Below are positions 28,614 to 40,791 of a DNA stretch of 64,000 bases, in pieces (the first letter of the stretch is position 1; each line of letters begins with the position of its first letter). The DNA lies in NCBI RefSeq assembly GCF_030845195.1, contig NZ_CP132543.1, forward strand, positions 1,629,501 through 1,693,500. The letters run 5' to 3'. The notes under the pieces are model-generated. The model was not told the DNA's origin and searched no databases. It saw only the letters and a list, made by a program, of their open reading frames with translations. A program made the translations under genes and the position numbers. The DNA comes from Sanyastnella coralliicola (GTDB lineage Bacteria > Bacteroidota > Bacteroidia > Flavobacteriales_D > Sanyastnellaceae).

Positions 28614-28927
28614 ATGCTTGAGTTGGGTGTGTTGATTCAAAATTCAGCTTTCCAGAGCAGATATACAGGTGAAATTGCAATTGTTGTGCCGCAGGTTATC
28701 CACAGCATATGATCATAACGGATGAAGCACCTACGAATGTTACGTGCATTGCGGAGAAGTTCATAACATTCACCTAACCAGCATTCACGACAAACCTCCT
28801 GAAAGCCCCATCCTTTATAGGATGCGCATGACAACCAGAAGGTTACTCAGCATTACATTTTCATAACCTCAGAGCAACGTTGACCATGCAGTCTGACGAT
28901 ATGTTTGCTGCACCAAAATACTATACC
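28614..28927. other. Divergent intergenic region with a lone DnaA-box-like site
   Basis: About 310 bp between the 1,486-residue protein gene (minus) and the choice-of-anchor I gene (plus). It contains TTATCCACA at 28696-28704, a perfect DnaA-box word, but only one copy, and three TCATAAC words. No RNA gene or terminator is seen. Confidence 0.4.
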
Positions 28928-31054
28928 ATGAAGTCCCTTACTCTCTCAGTTATTGCCTTGGCAATGATCTGCCTTTCAACGACAAAGGCTACCTCTCAAA
29001 ATTTCGGAGGAGAAGTTCTTCCGACCATCTCGTTCAGTGAAGATTTCAGAAATGTGAATGAAAATGCCGGCGTTGCTTCTTTTGAAGTTGAGATTACTGA
29101 AGCTATCGCCGAAGACGTTGACTTCACTTTTGCTGTGAATCCTACTTCAACTGCCCTGGCAGGTACTAATTGGGATGTGGCTTCATTTAACGGAACGATT
29201 CCAGCAGGACAAACTTCCACTTCTATTGATTTCATCATTTATGATAACGCTAGCGCGGAAAATGAAGTGTTCGTCGCATTCGATCTAATTGCTGCTGACA
29301 ATGCCAACGTCGATCTTAGCGCAGATCCATTCTTCATCTTTATTCAAGACGACGAAGTGATGGAAGTTGAACAACAGGAAAGCATCACATTGGAGTACCT
29401 AAACAGCTACCTCGTAGAAGACGGCGGTTCTGCTGAGATTGTCGCTTACGAACCGAACGTAAAACGCCTCTATGTCTTGAACTCTGAGTCGACTACGGTG
29501 AACATCCTTGATTTCTCTGACCCTTCTAACATTAGCGAAATCAGCGCTATTGATATGAGTCAGTTTGGTGATGGTGCAACGTCTATTGATGTAAGAAACG
29601 GAGTGGTTGCAGCTACCGTTGAAGGAGATATGACGGTAGAAGGATCTGTTGTATTCCTTGACCTCGATGGAAACATTATTTCAAGTGTTGATGTAGGCGC
29701 ACTCCCTGACATGCTTGTTTTCACTCCAGATGGAAACTCAGTTCTAGTGGCCAATGAAGGTGAGCCAAATGATGATTACACCCTTGATCCAGAAGGTAGC
29801 ATCTCTCGTATCGACATTTCTGGAGGAGTTGAGAACGTGACGCAAGATGACGTCATTACCATGACATTTAACGTCTTTGATAATCAAATCGAAAGCTTGC
29901 GAGAGGCAGGCGTTCGAATCTTCGGTCTCAACGCTACAGTTTCACGTGATCTCGAACCGGAGTATATCACTGTAGCAGAAGATGGTTTGTCAGCATGGGT
30001 TTCGTTGCAGGAGAACAATGCGATTGCAACGATTGATCTCGTGAATAACGAGATCACTTCAATCATTCCTCTAGGAGTGAAGAATCACAACCTTCCTGAG
30101 AATGCTCTGGACGTATCAGATCGCAACGACGAAATCTTCTTCGCGAACTGGGACATCTACAGTATGTACCAACCGGATGCCATTGCTTCATACGAAGTGA
30201 ACGGCGTTCCTTACGTTGTGACAGCGAATGAAGGAGATCAACGAGAATTTGGCCCCATAAACGAAGATGTTGACGTAGATACCGACAGCTACATTCTAGA
30301 TGCCGAAGCCTACCCATATGCTGATGAATTCAAACTAGATCATTTGCTCGGACGAATCGCGGTATCACCATACACTGGAGATACAGATGGAGACGGAGAC
30401 ATCGATCAGATTCATGTATTCGGTGGACGTTCATTCTCTATCTGGAATGGCCTAACTGGAGACTTGGTTTACGACAGCGGGTCTGATTTCGAACGTATTA
30501 CTGCAGCTGACCCTGTATTTGGGGAGTTGTTCAATGCAAGTAACTCGAACAACAATTTCAAGAACCGTTCAGACAACAAAGGTCCTGAACCGGAAGGTGT
30601 AACTGTAGCGACAATTGGACAACGCACCTACGCGTTCGTCACGCTAGAGAGAGTGGGTGGTGTGATGACATATGACATTACTGACCCTGCCAATGCCATT
30701 TTCGTAGGCTACGATAACAGCAGAACACTTGGCGAAGGTGAAGACGAAGGTGGAGATCTTGGTCCGGAAGGAATCATCTACATCTCTCCTGCTGACTCAC
30801 CAAACGGACATGGCATGGTCATTATGGCTAACGAAGTCAGCGCAACGCTTTCTATCTACACAGTCGATCCTTCTGCTTGCTTTCTCGCGGATCTTGATAA
30901 CGATGGTGTTGTTGACGCAGCAGACTTGCTGATCATGTTGGCCAACTTTGGTTGTCAAGAAAACTGTATTGTAGGCGACTTTAACAACGACGGAGTTGTG
31001 GCTATTGCTGATCTACTAATCTTCCTCTCTGGATACGGAGAGACTTGTAACTAA
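28928..31054 (+). CDS. Choice-of-anchor I domain protein with Calx-beta and dockerin-like repeats
   Basis: 708 residues from the ATG at 28928, which starts the signal peptide (KSLTLSVIALAMICLSTTKA). In-frame ATGs upstream exist but add a polar extension. Residues ~25-140 are a Calx-beta-like domain (ISFSEDFRNVNENAGVASFE). Then comes a long beta-propeller of the choice-of-anchor I family (VLVANEGEPNDDYTLDPEGS; VTANEGDQREFG; GPEPEGVTVATIGQRTYAFV). The C-terminus has two Ca-binding dockerin-like repeats (DLDNDGVVDAADLLIMLANF and DFNNDGVVAIADLLIFLSGY) in place of a T9SS sorting domain. It is probably an extracellular or periplasmic esterase/phosphatase-like protein; activity is unproven. It contains an exact 13-bp word at 29248-29260. 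Confidence 0.82.
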   Translation: MKSLTLSVIALAMICLSTTKATSQNFGGEVLPTISFSEDFRNVNENAGVASFEVEITEAIAEDVDFTFAVNPTSTALAGTNWDVASFNGTIPAGQTSTSIDFIIYDNASAENEVFVAFDLIAADNANVDLSADPFFIFIQDDEVMEVEQQESITLEYLNSYLVEDGGSAEIVAYEPNVKRLYVLNSESTTVNILDFSDPSNISEISAIDMSQFGDGATSIDVRNGVVAATVEGDMTVEGSVVFLDLDGNIISSVDVGALPDMLVFTPDGNSVLVANEGEPNDDYTLDPEGSISRIDISGGVENVTQDDVITMTFNVFDNQIESLREAGVRIFGLNATVSRDLEPEYITVAEDGLSAWVSLQENNAIATIDLVNNEITSIIPLGVKNHNLPENALDVSDRNDEIFFANWDIYSMYQPDAIASYEVNGVPYVVTANEGDQREFGPINEDVDVDTDSYILDAEAYPYADEFKLDHLLGRIAVSPYTGDTDGDGDIDQIHVFGGRSFSIWNGLTGDLVYDSGSDFERITAADPVFGELFNASNSNNNFKNRSDNKGPEPEGVTVATIGQRTYAFVTLERVGGVMTYDITDPANAIFVGYDNSRTLGEGEDEGGDLGPEGIIYISPADSPNGHGMVIMANEVSATLSIYTVDPSACFLADLDNDGVVDAADLLIMLANFGCQENCIVGDFNNDGVVAIADLLIFLSGYGETCN
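29248..29260 (+). repeat. 13-bp word, exact copy
   Basis: In the choice-of-anchor I gene (N-A-S-A-E-N); flanks diverge from the extended consensus. Confidence 0.88.
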
Positions 31055-31076
31055 CTTACCTTTAGATCGATTTGAA

Positions 31077-31097
31077 GGGGGCCTAGCCCCCCTTTTT
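31077..31097 (+). terminator. Rho-independent terminator
   Basis: 6-bp GC stem GGGGGC / GCCCCC with loop CTA followed by CTTTTTC. It separates the choice-of-anchor I gene from the acetate locus. Confidence 0.8.
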
Positions 31098-31098
31098 C

Positions 31099-31127
31099 TT
31101 GCTAAATTATTATCGTTTTGCTAAATT
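31099..31127 (+). promoter_or_regulatory. Two direct repeats TTGCTAAATT, 19 bp apart
   Basis: Copies at 31099-31108 and 31118-31127 lie immediately before the ATG (31133) of the zinc-ribbon/HTH gene. A centre spacing of about two helical turns suits a dimeric binding protein. Looser TGCTAT words recur at 31556 and 31570 before the porin gene. Confidence 0.45.
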
Positions 31128-31132
31128 CATAT

Positions 31133-31552
31133 ATGCAACGAACGATATGTCCAAAATGCAGTCATGATTCTTCCACGAAAGCCGGAATTATTAATGGGAG
31201 GCAGCGTTACAAATGCCGTAATTGCGGATATCATTTCACAATAAATAAAGTCGGTAAAAGGATCGACCAATACTACGTAACCAAAGCCCTACAACTCTAT
31301 CTGGAAGGACTCTCATATCGTGAAATTGAAAGGATCATTGGGGTTAGTCATGTCTCAGTCATGAACTGGGTCAAACAATACGGTATCAAAAGAGTCGAAA
31401 CCGGACAATACCACCCTAATTACCGCATAGTTAGCCACGAAGAGTTGGCTTCATATTTTTCCGACAAAAGTGAAGTTCAAGGGAAGGGAATGCTTATCAC
31501 TGAACTCGGTGACAAATTCATGGTAATTCGGTGGGAGAGATTTCGTGAATAA
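31133..31552 (+). CDS. IS1 InsA-like zinc-ribbon / helix-turn-helix DNA-binding protein
   Basis: 139 residues from the ATG at 31133; a TTG at 31118 lies inside a putative operator. The N-terminus is a zinc ribbon with C6-x2-C9 and C28-x2-C31 (ICPKCSHDSS and YKCRNCGYHFTIN), as in IS1 InsA. A helix-turn-helix follows at residues ~52-81 (LSYREIERIIGVSHVSVMNW). The last ~50 residues match no nuclease domain: the DDE catalytic part is absent. No InsB-like frame, terminal inverted repeats or target duplication surround it. It heads an acetate-use gene cluster in the same direction. I infer a domesticated transposase N-domain acting as a transcription factor of this locus; the alternative is a solo IS remnant. 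Confidence 0.8.
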   Translation: MQRTICPKCSHDSSTKAGIINGRQRYKCRNCGYHFTINKVGKRIDQYYVTKALQLYLEGLSYREIERIIGVSHVSVMNWVKQYGIKRVETGQYHPNYRIVSHEELASYFSDKSEVQGKGMLITELGDKFMVIRWERFRE

Positions 31553-31584
31553 CTATGCTATTAACAATTTGCTATATCATTTTG

Positions 31585-31609
31585 GTGAGATAGCTTCTTG
31601 ATATCTCAC
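31585..31609. promoter_or_regulatory. 8-bp perfect inverted repeat upstream of porin gene
   Basis: GTGAGATA / TATCTCAC with a 9-base spacer, 40 bp before the porin ATG and overlapping a CACATTTG promoter-like box (31607-31614). It could be an operator for the acetate cluster. Confidence 0.5.
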
Positions 31610-31648
31610 ATTTGGGTCATTGCCAAAGGGCAATTAACACCTTACACT

Positions 31649-32905
31649 ATGACCCAAATCAAAACTTTACTTCTAACGGGAGCTTTATGTTTCCTTATGA
31701 TAGGGCTACATGCTCAGGACTCTCCTACCGTGCCCGAACCATACAATGGAGGGCTCAAAGTCAAGCTGAACGATTCTGGCAGCAAATACTTCCGACTTAT
31801 TACCTGGCATCAATTCCAACTTCTAGCCAGTGATGAATTCGACGAAAACTTCGACGTTTCAGCACAATTGCGACGATCACGCATGCTGATGTTTGCCCAA
31901 CTCAGTGATCGTTTTCTAGTCTTGACTCATTTCGGACTGAACAATCTGACAAGCGCGGGATTGCACCCCACTGGGCAATCGTCGCAAGCACAGCTTTTCA
32001 TGCATGACGCTTGGGTTGAATACAAACTAGCAAACAATGTTTACATGGGCGGCGGACTCCATTATTGGAATGGAATTAGTCGACTTAACAATCAGAGCAC
32101 ACTCAATATGATGCCCCTTGACAACCCGAGGTTCGCTTGGGCTACCATTGGAACATCAGATCAGTTCGCACGCCACATCGGCCTTTACGTTAAAGGAACA
32201 GTAAAGAATAAATTGAACTATCGTTTTGCGTGGAATCAGCCCATGACAAACAGCATCGACTTAGGTGATGAACTTACTCCAGACGCTGCAAGCTATCAAG
32301 GAGCTTTCTACGAAGGACATAAAGACGCAGGGCACGCCTTCTCGGGATATGTGAACTACGAAGTGTTCGATTCAGAATCTACCAAACTCCCCTATTTCGT
32401 TGGCACCTATTTAGGAGCGAAGAAAGTTCTGAGCGTAGGTGGTGGATTCTTCTATCACCCTAAGGGATCTGTCTCGTTGAATTCAGAGTCAACTGAAATC
32501 ATCTCACATGATGTCCTACTGTTCTCAGCAGACGTATTCTACGATGCCCCTCTAGGAGATAATGGATCAGCCATCTCTGCTTACGCAGGATATTTCAACT
32601 ATGATTTTGGGCCGAATTACGCTCTAGGCGGAACCAGCGTAGATATCAACACAAGTAACACCATCTACACCCAGATTGGCTACTTGCTACCGAAGTTTTC
32701 GGAAAAAATGAGAGTTCAGCCCTATGTAACAGCATCCACAAGAGATGCGGACGCATTTGGGGACAACTTGATTCAGGATGTAAACCTCGGCGCCAACTTC
32801 TTTATCAATGGACACAACGCGAAATACACAATCCAATACGGGTATCGTCAAGTAGGAACGGCTCCAACTGACGGAATCACCGTTCAAGCCCACATTTTCC
32901 TCTAA
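31649..32905 (+). CDS. Outer-membrane porin-like protein
   Basis: 418 residues from the ATG at 31649 (MTQIKTLLLTGALCFLMIGL, cleavage near HAQ). A longer TTG-started reading (from 31598) would bury the signal peptide. The mature chain has the alternating pattern of a 16-strand-type barrel, with features of the phosphate-selective porin O/P family (KVKLNDSGSKYFRLITWHQF, AQLRRSRMLMFAQLSDRFLV) and a C-terminal strand ending in aromatic/hydrophobic residues (ITVQAHIFL). Its position directly before the symporter genes suggests it admits acetate or a related short acid through the outer membrane. Substrate choice is inferred from context only. Confidence 0.82.
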   Translation: MTQIKTLLLTGALCFLMIGLHAQDSPTVPEPYNGGLKVKLNDSGSKYFRLITWHQFQLLASDEFDENFDVSAQLRRSRMLMFAQLSDRFLVLTHFGLNNLTSAGLHPTGQSSQAQLFMHDAWVEYKLANNVYMGGGLHYWNGISRLNNQSTLNMMPLDNPRFAWATIGTSDQFARHIGLYVKGTVKNKLNYRFAWNQPMTNSIDLGDELTPDAASYQGAFYEGHKDAGHAFSGYVNYEVFDSESTKLPYFVGTYLGAKKVLSVGGGFFYHPKGSVSLNSESTEIISHDVLLFSADVFYDAPLGDNGSAISAYAGYFNYDFGPNYALGGTSVDINTSNTIYTQIGYLLPKFSEKMRVQPYVTASTRDADAFGDNLIQDVNLGANFFINGHNAKYTIQYGYRQVGTAPTDGITVQAHIFL

Positions 32906-32915
32906 ACCTACGATC

Positions 32916-33167
32916 ATGAATGAAAAGCATAAACAATATTGGAAGACTAATCTCCGGTTGATGGGGATTCTGCTAGTCATCTGGTTCATCGTGTCATATG
33001 GTTGCGGCATCCTATTCCGTGACGCACTTGACAATATCAAAATCGGAGGTTTCGGTCTTGGGTTTTGGTTCGCACAACAAGGAAGCATCTATGTCTTCGT
33101 TGTGCTCATCTTCTACTACGTAAAACGAATGAACAAAATCGACCACCAGTTCGGTGTCGACGAATAA
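32916..33167 (+). CDS. DUF4212 small subunit of a sodium:substrate symporter
   Basis: 83 residues with two membrane helices (LMGILLVIWFIVSYGCGILF and FWFAQQGSIYVFVVLIFYYV). The N-terminal EKHKQYWKTNLRL and the central GFGLGFWFAQQGSIYVFV are hallmarks of DUF4212, found next to SSS-family transporters as a probable small subunit. It lies 10 bp after the porin and 17 bp before the symporter gene, so it is translated from the same mRNA. Its exact role is not known. Confidence 0.9.
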   Translation: MNEKHKQYWKTNLRLMGILLVIWFIVSYGCGILFRDALDNIKIGGFGLGFWFAQQGSIYVFVVLIFYYVKRMNKIDHQFGVDE

Positions 33168-33184
33168 CCCTTAATCGAACGAAC

Positions 33185-34924
33185 ATGGATATTCAAGTTT
33201 GGACCTTTATCATCGTCGGCATCACCTTCGCGATTTACATTGGAATAGCGATTTGGTCTAGAGCTGGCTCTACAAAAGAATTCTACGTTGCAGGAGGAGG
33301 TGTTCCCCCTCTTGCTAACGGATTAGCTACTGCAGCTGATTGGATGTCAGCCGCATCTTTCCTTGGAATGGCCGGGCTTATCTCATTTATGGGATATGAC
33401 GGATCTGTTTTTCTCATGGGATGGACTGGAGGTTACGTTCTCCTTGCACTCTTACTGGCACCATACCTCAGAAAATTTGGGAAATTTACAGTACCTGATT
33501 TTATCGGTGACAGATACTATTCAAACGTCGCAAGAACAGTAGCCATTCTTGCAGCTCTTTTCGTATCCTTCACTTACGTAGCAGGACAAATGCGAGGAGT
33601 TGGAGTCGTATTCGCTCGATTCTTGGAAGTAGATGTTGATACTGGAGTATACATCGGTATGGCCATTGTATTCATCTACGCTACGCTAGGTGGAATGAAA
33701 GGTATTACATACACCCAAGTAGCTCAATACTGCATATTGATTTTTGCCTTCATGGTGCCTGCATTCTTTATTTCGATGCAGTTGACTGGAAACCCACTTC
33801 CTCAGATTGGAATGGGCGGAAAAGGTGAAGACGGAATGTACCTATTGGACAAAATAAATCAGCTTCACACAGACCTAGGTTTCAAAGAATACACTGCTAG
33901 CTCAAAGAGCATGACGGATGTACTGTTTATCACCGCAGCATTAATGGTAGGTACAGCAGGACTACCTCACGTGATTGTTCGATTCTTCACGGTTCCTAAA
34001 GTTCGAGATGCGAGAAAGTCTGCTGGGTGGGCTTTATTATTCATTGCCATCCTCTACACTACAGCTCCTGCTATAGCTGTGTTCGCTAAAACGAATCTCC
34101 TTTCAACGGTAAACAACAAACCAGCTGAAGAACTCCCTGCTTGGGTAGGAAATTGGCAAGAAACCGGACTTCTTTCTTGGGAAGACCACAACGAAGATGG
34201 AGTGGTTCAGTACTACAACGACAAGAACCCGGAATACGTTGCAAACGTCGCTGATCCAGCTGGTTTAAAAGGAAATGAGTTGACGATTGATCGTGACATC
34301 ATGGTGCTTGCAAACCCTGAAATCGCAGGGCTCCCCAATTGGGTTATTGCACTAGTTGCTGCCGGAGGATTAGCAGCTGCGCTTTCGACTGCAGCTGGTC
34401 TACTATTGGTCATTTCGACTTCAGTTTCTCACGATTTGATCAAGAAACAAATTGCGCCAAACATCAGTGACAAAGGCGAGTTGTTATGGGCCCGCGTAGC
34501 TGCGGTAGCTGCGGTTGTGGTTGCCGGATATTTTGGAATTAACCCACCAGGATTCGTCGCCTCGGTAGTAGCACTGGCCTTTGGCTTAGCTGCCGCAAGT
34601 TTCTTCCCTGCTATTATTTTGGGAATCTTCAACAAGCGAATGAACAAAGAAGGTGCTATCGCTGGAATGGTCGGTGGTTTGCTCATCACCTGTTATTACA
34701 TCGCTCGATTCAAGCTGCATTGGATTGGTGATCCTGAAACTTCAGGAGCCGACCACTGGTGGTTTGGTATTTCACCTGAAGGATTCGGTACCATTGGTAT
34801 GTTTGTGAACTTCGCCATCGCACTGACGGTCAGCAGATTCACCCCTGCCCCTCCTCAACAAGTTCAGGATATGGTGGAAGATATCCGTATCCCAAAAGGA
34901 GCCGGTGCTGCACAGGAACATTGA
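33185..34924 (+). CDS. actP: Sodium:solute symporter, ActP-type acetate permease
   Basis: 579 residues from the ATG at 33185. An open frame extends 120 bp upstream, but that overlaps DUF4212. SSS/SLC5 fold with about 13 helices. The motif STKEFYVAGGGVPPLANGLATAADWMS is highly typical of the acetate symporter branch, and it carries AALSTAAGLLLVISTSVSHD in the sodium-site helix. A soluble insert (~residues 315-380, GNWQETGLLSWEDHN) is also usual in the DUF4212-linked type. It should import acetate or another short monocarboxylate with sodium. The acs gene four genes downstream supports acetate. A long hairpin follows its stop. Confidence 0.88.
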   Translation: MDIQVWTFIIVGITFAIYIGIAIWSRAGSTKEFYVAGGGVPPLANGLATAADWMSAASFLGMAGLISFMGYDGSVFLMGWTGGYVLLALLLAPYLRKFGKFTVPDFIGDRYYSNVARTVAILAALFVSFTYVAGQMRGVGVVFARFLEVDVDTGVYIGMAIVFIYATLGGMKGITYTQVAQYCILIFAFMVPAFFISMQLTGNPLPQIGMGGKGEDGMYLLDKINQLHTDLGFKEYTASSKSMTDVLFITAALMVGTAGLPHVIVRFFTVPKVRDARKSAGWALLFIAILYTTAPAIAVFAKTNLLSTVNNKPAEELPAWVGNWQETGLLSWEDHNEDGVVQYYNDKNPEYVANVADPAGLKGNELTIDRDIMVLANPEIAGLPNWVIALVAAGGLAAALSTAAGLLLVISTSVSHDLIKKQIAPNISDKGELLWARVAAVAAVVVAGYFGINPPGFVASVVALAFGLAAASFFPAIILGIFNKRMNKEGAIAGMVGGLLITCYYIARFKLHWIGDPETSGADHWWFGISPEGFGTIGMFVNFAIALTVSRFTPAPPQQVQDMVEDIRIPKGAGAAQEH

Positions 34925-34932
34925 TATATCTC

Positions 34933-34965
34933 AAGAAGGGGGAAGCCATTTGGTTCCCCCTTCTT
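34933..34965 (+). terminator. Long perfect hairpin after actP, possible attenuator
   Basis: AAGAAGGGGGAAxCC pairs with GGxTTCCCCCTTCTT around a 4-5-base loop. No clean T-run follows, so partial termination or mRNA protection between the transporter and the sensor genes is more likely than a full stop. Confidence 0.6.
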
Positions 34966-34980
34966 CACTATTTTAAGACG

Positions 34981-35163
34981 ATGAAACTCGGAAAGTCATT
35001 TCTCTTCTTTATCCTGTTGATTCTAGTTGTTGGATTAGGGTATCCAGTGTTGTCACTATTCAGTAGCGCTGTTGCTCTCCTCGCATTCATTTTGACTTTG
35101 TGGATTCTACTCGTCGTTACTATGTGGTTATGGAGTTCTAAAACAAAGGAACAAGACCATTGA
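34981..35163 (+). CDS. Small two-helix membrane protein (60 aa)
   Basis: Starts MKLGKSFLFFILLILVVGLG and has a second span (VALLAFILTLWILLVVTMWL) and a charged tail (SSKTKEQDH). It lies between actP and the symporter-kinase gene and overlaps the latter by four bases (TTGA), which implies translational coupling. Short proteins of this kind are seen next to CbrA/CrbS-type kinases; a role in assembly or stability of the kinase is a plausible guess. It carries no family motif that I recognise. Confidence 0.72.
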   Translation: MKLGKSFLFFILLILVVGLGYPVLSLFSSAVALLAFILTLWILLVVTMWLWSSKTKEQDH

Positions 35164-37850
35164 GCACCCTCCTTCTCATATTAATTGCACTCTTGTATTT
35201 AGGAGGATTATTCTTTGTTGCTCAACGAGCAGAGAATAAAAAGCTTCCTAAACTGCTTCATCGCCCCGGAGTTATTTATGCTCTTTCCCTAGGCGTATAT
35301 TGCACTGCGTGGACTTTTTATGGATCCATCGGTCGAGCAGCAGACCACGGCATTGACTTCTTGACAATTTACATTGGCCCAATTCTAATGATGCCGCTGT
35401 GGTGGATTGTAACCAGAAAAGTGATTCGCATAGTCAACTACCAACACATCGCGTCTTTAGCAGATTTCCTCGCTGCGCGATACGGCAAAGATCAGCGTAT
35501 TGGAAGCATCGTAGCTTCAATTTGCCTATTAGCAATTACACCCTATATCGCTCTTCAAATCAAAGCAATTTCAGACACCATTGTCTTAAGTAGTGGTTCT
35601 CAATCTTTGGTAGAAGGTTTCGATGCAGGGCTTATTACCGCCGTCTTTTTATGTCTGTTCACTATTCTCTACGGAGCGCGTTTCGTTGGACAACATCAAA
35701 AACGCAAAGGAATGGTCACGGTTGTGGCGTTAGAATCTGTCATTAAGCTAGTGGCGTTTCTCATCGCTGGCATCGTTATCCTGGTTTCAATGAAGCCTGA
35801 TTTAACGACCCTTTGCTCTCAATCTGAAGTCATAAAGAATTTCACTTTTGAGCAAGGAACTGGCATGGGGAATTGGATCATTCTAACCGTCATTTCGGGT
35901 TTTGCAATGATTCTGCTCCCAAGACAGTTTCAAGTAGGGGTTGTAGAAGTAAAGAAGGAAGAACATCTAAAGACAGCCATGTGGATGTTCCCTTTATACC
36001 TGCTCTTGATTAACATTCTAGTGATTCCCATTGCATTGCTGGGGAATAGTATCATCGCCGATTCTCCTTCTGACTACTACATGTTATCTCTAGCCGCCAT
36101 TAGCGGCAATGACTTCCTCATGCCATTAATATATCTGGGAGGTTTCTCCGCTGCGACGTCAATGATCATTGTAAGTAGTATCGCTCTTGGAGGTATGGTT
36201 TCAACGAATCTGGTGATCCCTGCCATTATTCAAAAAGACGCTCCTGAAGATTATTCAAAACGAATACTCAATTCAAAAAGACTGAGCATTCTTCTGGTAT
36301 TCGTACTTGCGTACACATACCAACACTATTTGTCAGAGCGAACAGCCCTAGTGTCGGTTGGTATGACTTCCTTCATTGGTATCGCACAATTAGCCCCGGC
36401 GTTCATAGGAGCGATTTATTGGCGAAACGGAACTAAAACAGGCGCCATTAGTGGACTATTGGTTGGATTCATCACTTGGAGTGCCTTACTGATTATCCCC
36501 GGTTTGATCATTGATCCTGAGCTAGCCACCACTGGAGAAGCCACTCTATTTGGTCAGTGGATCTTTGATGCGATAGGTCTCGATCGAATTCCAGGAACAG
36601 CCCTCATTAGTATTACCGCGAATGCCTTGACATTTGTAGGGGTTTCATTGCTGACAACTCAATCTCAAACAGAGGTGAATCAGGCCAACATCTTTTCGAA
36701 TATTATGAAGATCGAGAAGTCAAAGTTTGATAGTACAGGGATATGGGCAACAAGCGCCTCTTTTCCGGATCTTAAGTCTTTGTTGATTCAGTTCCTTGGA
36801 GATCGTAGAACGGAAGAGGTATTGGACCGTTATGCTCGTATAAATGACATTGACTTCTCGAAGCAAGACAAGGCTGACCCTAGAGTCATTTCATATGCTG
36901 AACGCCTCTTAACCGGAGCTATTGGCCCTGCATCAGCACGAATCATGATCTCTCATGTCACTCAGAATGAGGAAATTAGCATCGAAGAAATCGTTGATAT
37001 TTTGACCGAGTCTAGGCAGGTTCACCGTCTGAACAGAAAACTCCAGCAACAACAAGACGCCTTAATTAAAGCAGGAGATCAACTCAAATCTGCGAATCGA
37101 CAATTGCAAGAGTATGCTGAGCTCAAGAATGAATTCTTGTATACGGTAACTCATGAGCTTCGCACTCCCCTCACTGCTATCCGTTCTCAAGCTGAAATGC
37201 TCGCAGAAGAAGAGATCCCAGAAGAAGACCAGCAGCGCTTTTTAGAGAATATCGTCTCAGACTGTGAGCGACTCACACAGCTGATCACCAACGTATTAGA
37301 CTTAGAACGTTATGAGTCAGGCAACTTCCAAACGGACTTTGAGACGATTGAAATTTCCAAAATAATCGACGATGCGGTTCGTAGTATGCTTTCGCTAGCG
37401 CGGAATAGGAATCTCGAAATAAACTATTGGTCTCATACCCTTCCTAAGATAAAAGGAGACGAAGGCCGTTTAATTCAAGTCCTGATTAACCTGATCTCTA
37501 ACGCGATAAAATTCTCTTCAACAGATAGTGCTGCCGTAGCCATAGAAACAGAATTACATAATGGCTACATACATATTGATGTATGTAATAACGGTGGAGG
37601 CATTGCTGCAGACGAACGTGATCTTATCTTCGAAAAATTCTATCAATCGAAACACCAGACGAGGAGAAAAAAAGCAGGAAGCGGATTAGGTCTTGCCATA
37701 TGTAAGAATATAATCTCTGTGCATAATGGAACCATCGAGGTAAGCGAACATGATGACTATAATACTTGCATACGAGTTAAACTTCCTGTCAAGAACGAAT
37801 TGAAAACCCCTGAGAAACTAGATTATGAAACGCATTTTGATAGTGGATGA
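35160..37850 (+). CDS. SLC5 symporter-histidine kinase fusion (CrbS/CbrA-like sensor)
   Basis: 896 residues with a TTG start that overlaps the preceding stop (TTGA). Residues ~1-500 are a complete SSS/SLC5 transporter-like membrane domain (YCTAWTFYGSIGRAADHGID). Residues ~520-600 fit the STAC linker (LIQFLGDRRTEEVLDRYA; AERLLTGAIGPASARIMI). A coiled coil follows, then HisKA with the phospho-acceptor His in TVTHELRTPLTAI (~residue 665), the N box NLISNAIKFSS and the G box GSGLGLAICKNI. No PAS domain is obvious. In Vibrio and Pseudomonas such sensors control acetate or nutrient genes including acs. It overlaps the response regulator gene by 26 bp. An exact 13-bp word at 37393-37405 is read in a second frame (S-L-A-R-N). 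Confidence 0.9.
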   Translation: MSTLLLILIALLYLGGLFFVAQRAENKKLPKLLHRPGVIYALSLGVYCTAWTFYGSIGRAADHGIDFLTIYIGPILMMPLWWIVTRKVIRIVNYQHIASLADFLAARYGKDQRIGSIVASICLLAITPYIALQIKAISDTIVLSSGSQSLVEGFDAGLITAVFLCLFTILYGARFVGQHQKRKGMVTVVALESVIKLVAFLIAGIVILVSMKPDLTTLCSQSEVIKNFTFEQGTGMGNWIILTVISGFAMILLPRQFQVGVVEVKKEEHLKTAMWMFPLYLLLINILVIPIALLGNSIIADSPSDYYMLSLAAISGNDFLMPLIYLGGFSAATSMIIVSSIALGGMVSTNLVIPAIIQKDAPEDYSKRILNSKRLSILLVFVLAYTYQHYLSERTALVSVGMTSFIGIAQLAPAFIGAIYWRNGTKTGAISGLLVGFITWSALLIIPGLIIDPELATTGEATLFGQWIFDAIGLDRIPGTALISITANALTFVGVSLLTTQSQTEVNQANIFSNIMKIEKSKFDSTGIWATSASFPDLKSLLIQFLGDRRTEEVLDRYARINDIDFSKQDKADPRVISYAERLLTGAIGPASARIMISHVTQNEEISIEEIVDILTESRQVHRLNRKLQQQQDALIKAGDQLKSANRQLQEYAELKNEFLYTVTHELRTPLTAIRSQAEMLAEEEIPEEDQQRFLENIVSDCERLTQLITNVLDLERYESGNFQTDFETIEISKIIDDAVRSMLSLARNRNLEINYWSHTLPKIKGDEGRLIQVLINLISNAIKFSSTDSAAVAIETELHNGYIHIDVCNNGGGIAADERDLIFEKFYQSKHQTRRKKAGSGLGLAICKNIISVHNGTIEVSEHDDYNTCIRVKLPVKNELKTPEKLDYETHFDSG
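37393..37405 (+). repeat. 13-bp word, exact copy in a second reading frame
   Basis: In the symporter-kinase gene, preceded by TTT and read S-L-A-R-N, so the peptide differs from the usual A-S-A-E. Confidence 0.92.
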
Positions 37851-38187
37851 TGAACCAAACATCGTCATGTCTCTAGAATACTACTTCCGTAAAAAGGGGT
37901 TTGATGTATTCATTGCTCGTAACGGAACGGAGGCCTTGGATGCTGTTGATCAGCATCAACCAGAACTCGTAATTCTTGACATTATGATGCCAGACATTGA
38001 TGGATATGAAGTGTGCGAAAGAATCAAATCCAACGAGACGAGCAAAAACACCAAGATCATATTCCTTTCTGCTAAAAGCCGGAAAGAAGATATCGAGAAG
38101 GGATACGCTTCTGGAGCAAACCTATACATGCAAAAACCCTTCAAAAACAAAGAACTATACACAGAAGTCACCCAACTTCTAGAATAA
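37825..38187 (+). CDS. Single-domain response regulator
   Basis: 120 residues, essentially only a receiver domain. The acidic pocket is DDEP (8-10), the phospho-acceptor D52 lies in LVILDIMMPD, the Ser switch is in IFLSAKS, and the Lys is in MQKPF. There is no DNA-binding or enzymatic output domain, unlike CrbR of Vibrio, which has a LuxR-type HTH. It overlaps the kinase gene by 26 bp and lies 9 bp before acs. The output must pass through another protein; the zinc-ribbon/HTH protein at the head of this locus is a candidate (inference). Confidence 0.92.
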   Translation: MKRILIVDDEPNIVMSLEYYFRKKGFDVFIARNGTEALDAVDQHQPELVILDIMMPDIDGYEVCERIKSNETSKNTKIIFLSAKSRKEDIEKGYASGANLYMQKPFKNKELYTEVTQLLE

Positions 38188-38196
38188 AATATTCCC

Positions 38197-40122
38197 ATGG
38201 AAACTTTAGAACAAACAACCATGAATACGCCATATCAAATCACCTCTTTCGACGACTATAAACGTTCATACCAACAAAGTGTAGACGACCCTGAAACGTT
38301 CTGGGCAAACATTGCAATGAACTTTAAATGGTCTCGTCCTTGGAAGAAGGTTCTAGACTATAACTTCAGAGAGCCAAGTATCAAATGGTTCGATGGGGCT
38401 CAAACGAATATCACCATCAATTGTCTCGACAGACATCTACGGGAGCGCGGAAACAAACTCGCCGTTATATGGGAGCCAAATGATCCTAAGGAGCGATTCA
38501 TTCGATTGACCTACAGAGAATTATACGAACGTGTTTGTCAGTACGCTAACATATTGAAGAAGCACGGAGCCAAGAAGGGAGATCGTATCGCGATCTATAT
38601 GCCCATGGTACCAGAATTGGCGATCGCTGCGTTAGCATGTGCGCGAATTGGGGCTATTCACTCTGTGGTATTCGCAGGGTTTTCAGCTCAGGCACTTGCC
38701 GACAGAATAAACGACGCTGAAGCAAAGATGGTCTTGACTGCAGATGGTCTATACCGTGGAGCAAAGGAGATCCCGGTAAAACGCGTGGTAGACGAAGCTC
38801 TAGAGTCCTGCCCTAGCGTTCAAAAAGTCATCGTTACAGAGAGAACAAAATGGGCTGTGAATATGAAAGAAGGCCGGGACGTCTGGCTTCATGAAGAGCT
38901 CCCAACGGTAGATAAAGAATGTCCCGCAGAGCCTATGGATGCGGAAGATATGCTATTCATTCTCTACACAAGTGGATCTACAGGGAAGCCAAAAGGCGTG
39001 GTTCATACTGTGGGAGGCTACATGGTTTACGCAGGCTACACATTTAAGAACGTATTCCAATTAAATGAATCTGATGTTTATTGGTGTACAGCTGATATCG
39101 GCTGGATTACTGGCCACAGCTATATTATTTACGGACCACTCCTAAATGGAGCAACCACCTTGATGTTTGAAGGGGTTCCTTCTTGGCCAGACTATGGCCG
39201 ATTCTGGCAGGTATGTGATAAATATGGTGTGACTCAATTCTATACAGCTCCTACGGCAATTAGAGCGTTAATGGCGGCTGGTGATGATCATGTTTTGAGT
39301 TACTCTCTTGATTCACTCAAGGTACTAGGATCTGTGGGAGAACCAATTAATGAAGAGGCATGGCAATGGTATAATATCCACGTAGGAAAAGAGAAGTGTC
39401 CGATAGTTGACACTTGGTGGCAAACAGAAACTGGTGGAATTATGATCTCAGGACTAGGTGGTCATAGCCCTCAAAAGCCAAGTCATGCAGGATATCCTCT
39501 TCCAGGAATTCAGCCCGTATTGTTAGACTCTGATGGTAACGAAATCAAAGAGAACGAACGAGAGGGCTACCTCTGTATCAGACACCCCTGGCCTGGTATG
39601 CTTCGAACTACATACGGAGATCACGAACGATGTAAGAACGTGTATTTCTCAAATTACGAAGGCTATTACTTCACAGGCGATGGCGCACGAAGAGATGAAA
39701 ACGGTATGTACAGAATTATCGGTCGAGTTGATGACGTGATTAACGTTTCAGGACATCGTTTCGGTACCGCTGAAATCGAAAATGCCATTAATTCTAACGA
39801 TAAGGTGGCTGAATCGGCAGTCGTTGGCTATCCACATGATATAAAGGGGCAAGGAATCTATGCCTACGTTATTTGTAAAGATGCCGATGTAGACGATGAT
39901 ATCCTCAGAGCCGAAATCACAGAAAGTGTGGTTCAAGAGATCGGTAAAATTGCAAAACCAGATAAGATTCAAATAGTTCCTGGTCTTCCAAAAACGCGCA
40001 GTGGGAAAATCATGCGTCGAATTCTACGAAAAGTTGCGGAAGGAGACACCTCAAACTTAGGTGACACCTCTACCCTTCTAGATCCAGAAGTCGTGACGAT
40101 CATTAAGGAGAATGCACTCTAA
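38197..40122 (+). CDS. acs: Acetyl-CoA synthetase (acetate-CoA ligase, AMP-forming)
   Basis: 641 residues, full length for Acs. The N-terminal motif FWANIAMNFKWSRPWKKVLD is typical. The P-loop-like TSGSTGKPKG, the WWQTETGG motif, YFTGDGARRDENG and the C-terminal catalytic Lys in PKTRSGKIMRRILR are all intact; that Lys is the one controlled by reversible acetylation in other bacteria. It makes acetyl-CoA from acetate, ATP and CoA in the cytoplasm. It is the last gene of the porin-DUF4212-symporter-sensor-regulator cluster, which defines the locus as acetate scavenging. An internal ATG (MNTPYQITSF, 27 bp downstream) is an alternative start. Confidence 0.95.
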   Translation: METLEQTTMNTPYQITSFDDYKRSYQQSVDDPETFWANIAMNFKWSRPWKKVLDYNFREPSIKWFDGAQTNITINCLDRHLRERGNKLAVIWEPNDPKERFIRLTYRELYERVCQYANILKKHGAKKGDRIAIYMPMVPELAIAALACARIGAIHSVVFAGFSAQALADRINDAEAKMVLTADGLYRGAKEIPVKRVVDEALESCPSVQKVIVTERTKWAVNMKEGRDVWLHEELPTVDKECPAEPMDAEDMLFILYTSGSTGKPKGVVHTVGGYMVYAGYTFKNVFQLNESDVYWCTADIGWITGHSYIIYGPLLNGATTLMFEGVPSWPDYGRFWQVCDKYGVTQFYTAPTAIRALMAAGDDHVLSYSLDSLKVLGSVGEPINEEAWQWYNIHVGKEKCPIVDTWWQTETGGIMISGLGGHSPQKPSHAGYPLPGIQPVLLDSDGNEIKENEREGYLCIRHPWPGMLRTTYGDHERCKNVYFSNYEGYYFTGDGARRDENGMYRIIGRVDDVINVSGHRFGTAEIENAINSNDKVAESAVVGYPHDIKGQGIYAYVICKDADVDDDILRAEITESVVQEIGKIAKPDKIQIVPGLPKTRSGKIMRRILRKVAEGDTSNLGDTSTLLDPEVVTIIKENAL

Positions 40123-40142
40123 CGCATTCTGTTTTGGGCGAA

Positions 40143-40169
40143 AAGGTCGGGGGTTCCCGGCCTTTTTTT
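40143..40169. terminator. Bidirectional terminator after acs
   Basis: Imperfect stem AAGGTCGGG / CCCGGCCTT followed by a run of seven T. The minus-strand gene that converges on it stops inside the T-run. Confidence 0.82.
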
Positions 40170-40791
40170 AGACCGCCAATTTTGCAATTAGAGAGAAATA
40201 CTGTGTCCAGGGCCTTCGTTCACCAGCTGAATAAACCTGTCCGTGCCTTTCATAAATAACTTCTTCATATCCAGACTCAAACATGCTCTCAGAGCGAATT
40301 CCAATACCGAGGCCTGAATCCCACTCCTTCATCACACCGAATTGAGAAGAAAACGACACATATACGGAGGGGTAATCTGATTCTGAGAACTGTTTTTCAA
40401 GATCATACCACAGGCCTACTCTCACACCATAAACAATACTCAACCCTCGTAGTAAAGGAATTTGAACCGACGGACCAACGGCAGCACCAACTAAGACGCG
40501 ATTCTTTAGCCCGCTTTGCCTCAATGATCCCTTCAGGCCTATAAAGTGAATTCGATCTTCGAATCTTCGCTGAAACTCAACCTCTAGTGTCGATGAAGTG
40601 TAATGAACCTCTCTAGACTCTATTCTTCTGAATGGATTGAGCACACTTAAAGAACTTGACTCTCCATCAGCATAGAACTGAGATACCGAAGTGCCAAATC
40701 CAACGGAAGGTTCCATTACCCATTCAGACTGAGCTCGGCTGGTATTGGTAATAATTGCGAGTAGAAGTAAAAGAGCGAGAGTACATCTCAT
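40168..40791 (-). CDS. Predicted outer-membrane beta-barrel protein
   Basis: 207 residues. A signal peptide (RCTLALLLLLAIITNTSRAQ) is followed by amphipathic strands with aromatic girdles (VEFQRRFEDRIHFIGLKGSL; RVGLWYDLEKQF; VYVSFSSQFGVM) and a hydrophobic C-terminal strand (YFSLIAKLAV). The size fits an 8- to 10-stranded barrel of the outer-membrane-protein-beta-barrel type common in Bacteroidota. No specific family was recognised and the role is unknown. It lies downstream of an alpha/beta hydrolase gene on the same strand. Confidence 0.7.
   Translation of the reverse strand: MRCTLALLLLLAIITNTSRAQSEWVMEPSVGFGTSVSQFYADGESSSLSVLNPFRRIESREVHYTSSTLEVEFQRRFEDRIHFIGLKGSLRQSGLKNRVLVGAAVGPSVQIPLLRGLSIVYGVRVGLWYDLEKQFSESDYPSVYVSFSSQFGVMKEWDSGLGIGIRSESMFESGYEEVIYERHGQVYSAGERRPWTQYFSLIAKLAV

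Follow-up and report, generated by a model that had tools for sequence, protein, structure and literature searches.

We found that a short gene heading an acetate locus of Sanyastnella coralliicola probably encodes a domesticated InsA repressor of the insertion sequence IS1, kept together with the cores of the IS1 ends and predicted to control both its own expression and the adjoining porin/acetate operon. The gene (31133..31552, + strand) is numbered within the window, the whole 64,000-nucleotide stretch of DNA that was analysed, and by sequence evidence it belongs to a conserved family of gene-control proteins present in many Bacteroidota. Because a repeat at its start matches IS1 ends and recurs at relocated porin operons, the two halves of an IS1 recognition pair, InsA repressor and IS-end target, appear to have entered host service jointly, one as regulator and the other as operator.

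The open reading frame runs from the ATG at 31133 to the stop codon at 31550-31552 and encodes 139 amino acids. An earlier note on this DNA had proposed that the product keeps the InsA-like C2C2 ribbon and helix-turn-helix (HTH) of IS1 and has no catalytic partner, and family matches bear out both points. A zinc ribbon occupies residues 6-36 (31148..31240, + strand; NCBIfam NF050000), with cysteines at 6, 9, 28 and 31, and the NCBIfam model for the IS1/IS1595 N-terminal zinc domain scores 37.3 bits (cut-off 28). The HTH covers residues 46-86 (31268..31390, + strand); most of its Pfam and NCBIfam matches lie below curated cut-offs, and an AlphaFold model places helices at 46-57, 62-69 and 73-83. 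The IS1 transposase model matches residues 6-117 only and stays below its cut-off (79.8 bits, cut-off 100). The product stops at residue 139, with no insB and no DDE catalytic domain. The AlphaFold model, which shows ribbon, HTH and a beta-alpha-beta-beta tail, is of moderate quality (pLDDT 78.6, pTM 0.51); a PDB fold search with it gave no match at E <= 0.001, and a PDB sequence search gave weak matches only, the best to an HTH at E 0.0011. The multiple copies and mobility of an IS1 member were not seen: the gene is single in its own 4.1-Mb genome, with no second related gene at E 0.001, and sits in a conserved place. The upstream gene (28922-31054) encodes a choice-of-anchor I protein with a weakly dockerin-like C terminus.

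Comparison with IS1 elements indicates where the protein came from. Its tail, residues 97-135 (31421..31537, + strand), aligns, as do the tails of the other family proteins, with the start of the DDE domain in 14 IS1 frame-0 ORFs. In that alignment the first Asp of the DE motif, which we take to be the first catalytic Asp, is present in 14/14 IS1 but in only 1/80 family members, and the tail is thus read as a truncated DDE-domain start with its first Asp replaced. All four zinc cysteines are present in 80/80. Because the frame-0 products of the three nearest IS1 (L202-L204) are 144-150 amino acids long, the 139-residue gene corresponds to an InsA-type product; on this alignment it is an IS1 transposase cut short, the counterpart of the InsA repressor product. 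A tree places 77 distinct family proteins on one side of a branch (96/96) and the 14 IS1 on the other; it is built from few columns, its IS1 branches are long and its bootstrap had not settled. The median dN/dS of 0.027 across 46 family pairs indicates purifying selection.

The gene lies directly 5' of, and on the same strand as, the porin-DUF4212-symporter-kinase-regulator-acs series to which the earlier note had assigned it, as the ORF map and family matches confirm. All on the + strand, the series comprises a porin-like outer-membrane protein, the presumed first target (31649..32905; named from synteny and an ExtI-porin match below cut-off, with a porin query that began at 31658 and so lacked the first three residues); a DUF4212 small symporter subunit (32916..33167; family profile matches); a VC_2705-family sodium/solute symporter (33185..34924; TIGR03648, 878.6 bits); a membrane sensor histidine kinase (35160..37850; Pfam and NCBIfam matches); a receiver-only response regulator (37825..38187); and acetate--CoA ligase, acs (38197..40122; TIGR02188, 967.2 bits). 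The kinase carries Pfam HisKA and HATPase_c, with no receiver and no SSF match at E 0.1, and its first 600 residues appear by eye to be membrane-embedded. Just before it lies a 60-residue ORF (34981-35163) with no family match above cut-off, and small ORFs of 64-74 residues occupy the equivalent place in several relatives. The regulator, at 120 residues, consists in Pfam and NCBIfam of the receiver alone, again as the earlier note had held. In the porin leader, folding predicts a hairpin (31610..31659, + strand) whose 3' arm contains the porin ATG (31649-31651). Among relatives, 48/69 porin leaders have z < -2 against mononucleotide shuffles (mean z -2.59), and the sequence of the hairpin arms differs from genus to genus; this hairpin is possibly a second control, at the RNA level. 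An Rfam search over 30900-40300 gave no match at E 1.

This arrangement is widespread. A genome-contig scan yielded 259 relatives of the 139-residue gene, of which the best 80 were retained by similarity to that gene, neighbours playing no part. By title or tree label all of these best 80 are Bacteroidota, chiefly Flavobacteriaceae and Cyclobacteriaceae, plus some sphingobacterial and other MAGs. Locus L014, identical to L013 over 20 kb, was excluded from the operator, selection, tree, acs and quoted synteny counts. Among named loci with enough sequence, the same-strand downstream genes include the porin in 70/75, DUF4212 in 64/74, the symporter in 62/72, and the kinase, the receiver and acs in 69/72 each. 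Thus the linkage to acetate genes holds in most loci outside the window genome, and the homologues are not the randomly scattered IS fragments that the earlier note had named as the contrary outcome: they form one group apart from the 14 IS1 compared, mostly with one copy per genome. Of the five loci without a porin match, four are from Lutibacter and the fifth is another Flavobacteriaceae MAG; L064 and L070, the two that were examined, have an ORF of 391-398 residues in the porin's place. Ten loci lack DUF4212 and the symporter, and in the three of them examined (L015, L023 and L062) an MFS metabolite/H+ symporter replaces the pair in the same position, accompanied in L023 and L062 by DUF6814. 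Some loci also carry a second acs-like gene between the receiver gene and acs (L023:17072-18988, for example). Three loci (L062, L073 and L080) have no linked kinase; the kinase is elsewhere in the genome with receiver and acs, and no tandem site (described below) is found there.

Genome samples gave the same picture. In a 60-genome sample (own genome included), the gene was found at high similarity in its own genome, G010 and G030, and the kinase in the first two; the G030 contig stops within the porin. Of 399 genomes of the order, 31 had a match at 1e-20, mostly one per genome, and none of the 32 matches contained internal stops. A sample of 395 genomes of the phylum (own included) also gave 32 matches at 1e-20, of which two contained internal stops and 30 were free of them, one of the latter being an intact gene from another class (G686). 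The weak relatives with internal stops, G576 and G588, come from other classes and are probably decayed IS1. The kinase was found in 41 genomes of the phylum sample, in a census that scored two candidates per genome and so may miss carriers. Within the class, all 28 kinase carriers (own included) have the 139-residue gene, and in 27 of these the kinase follows the gene on the same strand at a distance of 2.1-4.5 kb, the remaining one being on another contig; the class has 29 gene carriers, G562 being the one without a kinase match. In the 13 kinase carriers of other classes in this sample, the gene is absent.

These 13 loci bear on the suggestion that the gene supplies the DNA-binding part that the receiver lacks. 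Near the kinase, ORF picking found a receiver protein of 122-164 residues in nine, and the one of these tested with Pfam is receiver-only; in the other four the receiver may be absent or hidden by overlapping ORFs. Because receiver-only proteins occur without the gene, a receiver with no DNA-binding domain does not alone call for it, and this part of the earlier note's reasoning is weakened by loci that pair such receivers with the kinase and do without the gene. Among the kinase loci of other Bacteroidota classes without the HTH gene (L187-L199), some have PAS proteins after the receiver, exonucleases occur among the neighbours, and an ArsR-type HTH precedes the kinase in some (Pfam-tested in L191).

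The proposed role as a transcription factor fared better: operator-like repeats support it strongly. Immediately 5' of the start codon, 80/80 loci (79 named loci plus the window) have TGCTAAATTRRTATAT in two direct copies. In the window, candidate operator unit 1, TGCTAAATTATTATCG, is at 31100..31115 (+ strand; matrix score 14.1 bits) and unit 2, TGCTAAATTCATATAT, at 31119..31134 (+ strand; 19.2 bits), 19 bp from unit 1 and overlapping the start codon by 2 nt. With periods of 17-23 allowed, the best pair has period 19 in 80/80 training loci, in 73 of which the site sequences are distinct, and 79/80 exceed a threshold of 24 bits with both units above 6. No further pair passed this threshold elsewhere in the 1.54 Mb of training loci or in Markov copies. 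The own genome contains one match to the tandem pattern at up to three mismatches, and zero to a reversed control pattern. Between loci the tandem site is 77% identical and the adjoining 35 nt upstream 35%. The matrix was also applied to 54 held-out genes outside its training, some with identical sites (L129, already in training, L157, too short, and L200 and L201, sequence duplicates, were left out). With periods of 15-26 allowed, 51/54 chose 19, one of these at only -3.4 bits; 48/54 reached at least 24 bits. Three loci had no period-19 optimum and six fell short of 24 bits. The best of 1,600 mononucleotide shuffles scored 11.7 bits, and 16 porin or kinase control loci without the gene scored at most -0.7 bits. 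Because both sets contain close relatives and the relocated loci described below come from two genera, locus counts are not counts of independent events. Outside the two flanks of the gene, the 80 loci contain 34 single units of at least 10 bits and one Markov copy contains 59; there is no enrichment that would point to a regulon elsewhere.

Consistent with an IS1 origin of the repeat, the sequence at the gene's start is of the terminal-repeat type, as in an InsA-type repressor. A Tenacibaculum IS1 among the nearest elements ends in GGCATTGCTAATTTAATATAG, and others of the nearest IS1 are similar. We scored 15 IS1 elements with the host operator matrix (L206, the same IS1 as L203, was not used). 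The Tenacibaculum ends ranked 1 and 2 of 5,484 positions (19.9 and 4.6 bits), the Methylobacter ends 3rd and 1st of 5,526 (1.4 and 10.6 bits), the Methanomethylovorans ends 9th and 4th of 5,490 (-2.3 and 0.6 bits), the Microcystis ends, which are less certain, 1st and 4th of 5,526 (7.0 and 0.9 bits) and the Pseudanabaena ends 3rd and 2nd of 5,316 (about 0 bits). In the remaining ten elements the ends ranked 12th or worse, and a Hymenobacter IS1 (L205) showed no convincing ends and no high-scoring unit. In L202-L204 the left IS1 end lies 49-59 nt 5' of the gene, roughly where the tandem lies in host loci. The GGCAT tip of the related IS1 ends precedes unit 1 in 0/80 loci. The earlier note's statement that there are no IS ends is therefore right for transposition-competent ends, but an inverted-repeat core appears to survive as the tandem at 31100-31134. 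Past the stop codon, many relatives carry an IRR-like reverse-complement unit, whose place in the window (31553..31590, - strand) is degenerate. A reverse-complement unit of at least 4 bits follows the stop in 59/79 loci (one locus with a short downstream stretch left out), against 3/79 for forward units and 3.9% of Markov copies, and in only 8/54 held-out loci; it stands out chiefly among the nearer relatives of the window.

Sites of the same kind are found where the operon has moved away from the gene. In nine genomes of the order the gene is followed by an MFS transporter, with DUF6814 in eight, and the porin-kinase-receiver-acs operon, where seen, is on the opposite strand. In all seven with a readable porin start (7/7), the relocated porin has a tandem of its own, with period 19 when 15-26 was left free, 209-241 bp 5' of the estimated porin start; it scores 16.6-29.8 bits and ranks 1st or 2nd of about 36,000-38,000 locus positions. 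This set leaves out L221 (porin start unreadable) and L222 (no porin in the stretch). Among the other loci annotated, L227 and L233 are cut stretches and L234 gave no HTH ORF. Coming from two genera of one family, these tandems represent one or two events; they cannot be mere remnants of a resident element's ends. In L015 and in L241-L243, acs is preceded at 62-68 nt by one reverse unit scoring 13.5-14.5 bits; L241-L243 are closely related to each other and represent one event. A tandem shared with a divergent acs-type gene occurs in L228-L231 and L233. Overall, a reverse unit of 8 bits was found upstream of acs in 6/74 cases (0.2 expected) and upstream of acs2 in 4/43 (0.6 expected), five of these ten being a shared tandem. 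The receiver gene had an 8-bit site upstream in 2/88 (0.7 expected), and zero such sites were found upstream of the kinase, symporter, DUF4212 and MFS genes; any control of these genes would have to go through the first promoter.

These observations suggest the following account. An IS1 element would have lost insB, the catalytic aspartate and the cleavage tips, and retained the zinc-ribbon/HTH protein with the core of the terminal inverted repeat that it bound. The protein would bind the tandem cores, 19 bp apart, where its own gene starts; corresponding sites would serve the porin/acetate operon or, in a small number of genomes, acs. Like InsA in IS1, it would most likely repress its own promoter and, acting at that site or at another, would also repress the porin-transporter-kinase-receiver-acs operon; we infer both the negative autoregulation and the operon repression by analogy with InsA. 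Release from DNA would come when a carbon source is present. Synteny and co-occurrence make acetate the obvious candidate signal, perhaps relayed by the kinase and receiver. A more far-reaching version, in which the IS1 circuit of InsA and end was captured once before spreading through the Bacteroidia, became the DNA-binding output of the kinase and receiver, and had its operator placed at each new promoter of the acetate pathway when the genes moved, falls somewhat short of an even chance.

The strongest competing explanation, although we consider it unlikely, is that the protein, joined with the phosphorylated receiver as its DNA-binding component, activates the porin operon. The constant company of kinase and gene within the class, the receiver's lack of a DNA-binding domain and the remote position of the site at relocated porins would all fit such a role. 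However, InsA is a repressor (PMC12428005), the main site overlaps the start region, and similar receivers adjoin the kinase where the gene is absent. Repression by an InsA-like protein is the reading that we favour.

Less probable still is a local autoregulator that merely preserves a fossil IS promoter, with the acetate genes answering to the kinase and receiver through another factor. The strongest and most constant site is indeed that at the start of the gene itself, the unit past the stop codon scores low in many loci, and no tandem is present at the unlinked kinase-receiver-acs locus of L241-L243. Yet a purely local role would not lead one to expect separate tandems at all readable relocated porins, the lone reverse units at acs in L015 and L241-L243 or the tandem common to divergent acs-type genes, each of which argues for control that reaches the acetate operon.

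The tandem could in principle be another protein's site or, in part, a core promoter. TAnnTTTG is the consensus of the Bacteroidota -7 promoter element, and the tandem centre lies within one mismatch of it in 79/80 loci and is exact in 8. That resemblance, together with the overlap of tandem and presumed promoter, favours an improbable reading, slightly more doubtful than the preceding one, in which the gene, a conserved part of the operon, has some other function and the repeat serves a different regulator or is a core promoter element of an alternative sigma factor. A sigma-factor signal would not be expected at a single site in the genome, however, and none of the 16 control loci that have kinase or porin but lack the gene carries the tandem. 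Moreover, the unit resembles the terminal repeats of the nearest IS1, which InsA binds in E. coli IS1 according to PMC12428005. Finally, a decaying IS1 fragment lying beside acetate genes by chance, although compatible with the IS1 model and zinc-ribbon matches and the missing catalytic half, is rejected as extremely improbable given the synteny and co-occurrence, a dN/dS of 0.027, the near absence of internal stops and the separate grouping of the family from IS1 (bootstrap unsettled).

Among known systems the closest is IS1 itself, in which, according to PMC12428005, E. coli InsA binds the IS1 ends via a zinc finger and HTH and represses a promoter overlapping IRL. As judged from its sequence, the host protein shares with InsA the zinc ribbon and HTH, the single-frame product and a terminal-repeat-type sequence at its own start, and the nearest IS1 ends fit the host operator matrix. 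Unlike IS1, the host gene has no insB, first Asp or GGCAT tips; its unit is doubled in tandem with a 19-bp period at a fixed chromosomal place; and extra sites occur at porin and acs promoters. The locus also resembles the acetate switch CrbS/CrbR (MxtR/ErdR), another pairing of a membrane histidine kinase with a response regulator that is linked to acetate genes, acs among them. The CrbS kinase of that switch has SLC5 and STAC domains. According to PMC5715377, it bears a C-terminal receiver domain, and CrbR, a member of the LuxR family, goes with an imperfect inverted-repeat motif, ACTU. By contrast, Pfam shows no receiver in the window kinase, the window regulator consists of a receiver with no LuxR-type domain, and the candidate operator is a direct repeat.

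TldR offers a parallel of another kind: it is described, in PMC13418256, as an inactivated transposon-encoded protein that serves as a transcription factor beside non-transposon genes. It differs in being RNA-guided and derived from TnpB, whereas here the N-terminal part of an IS1 protein seems to read the transposon end directly. The window protein matches the IS1 type over residues 6-117, its match to the Cas12f1-like TNB zinc ribbon is below cut-off (E 0.045), and no Rfam match was found at 30900-40300. SfsB, a relative of phage Mu Ner, is a further mobile-element-type DNA-binding protein with a part in carbon metabolism; unlike the present protein it is an Xre-type phage repressor and no transposase, and the excerpt of PMC8987985 describes no transposon-end operator for it. 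Among the matches listed in open-licence PubMed Central, no paper described acetate genes under an IS1-derived regulator or with operators taken from IS ends. Host regulators derived from transposons are already known; what apparently sets this case apart is that both the protein and the transposon end have been kept, and because both halves of the recognition pair seem to survive, the origin of the operator can be read from sequence. Since the gene is easily mistaken for IS1 scrap, a regulator of carbon uptake may be overlooked in many Bacteroidota. The pairing of an InsA-like protein with IS-end operators offers a directly testable answer to how a system with a receiver-only regulator could reach its promoters.
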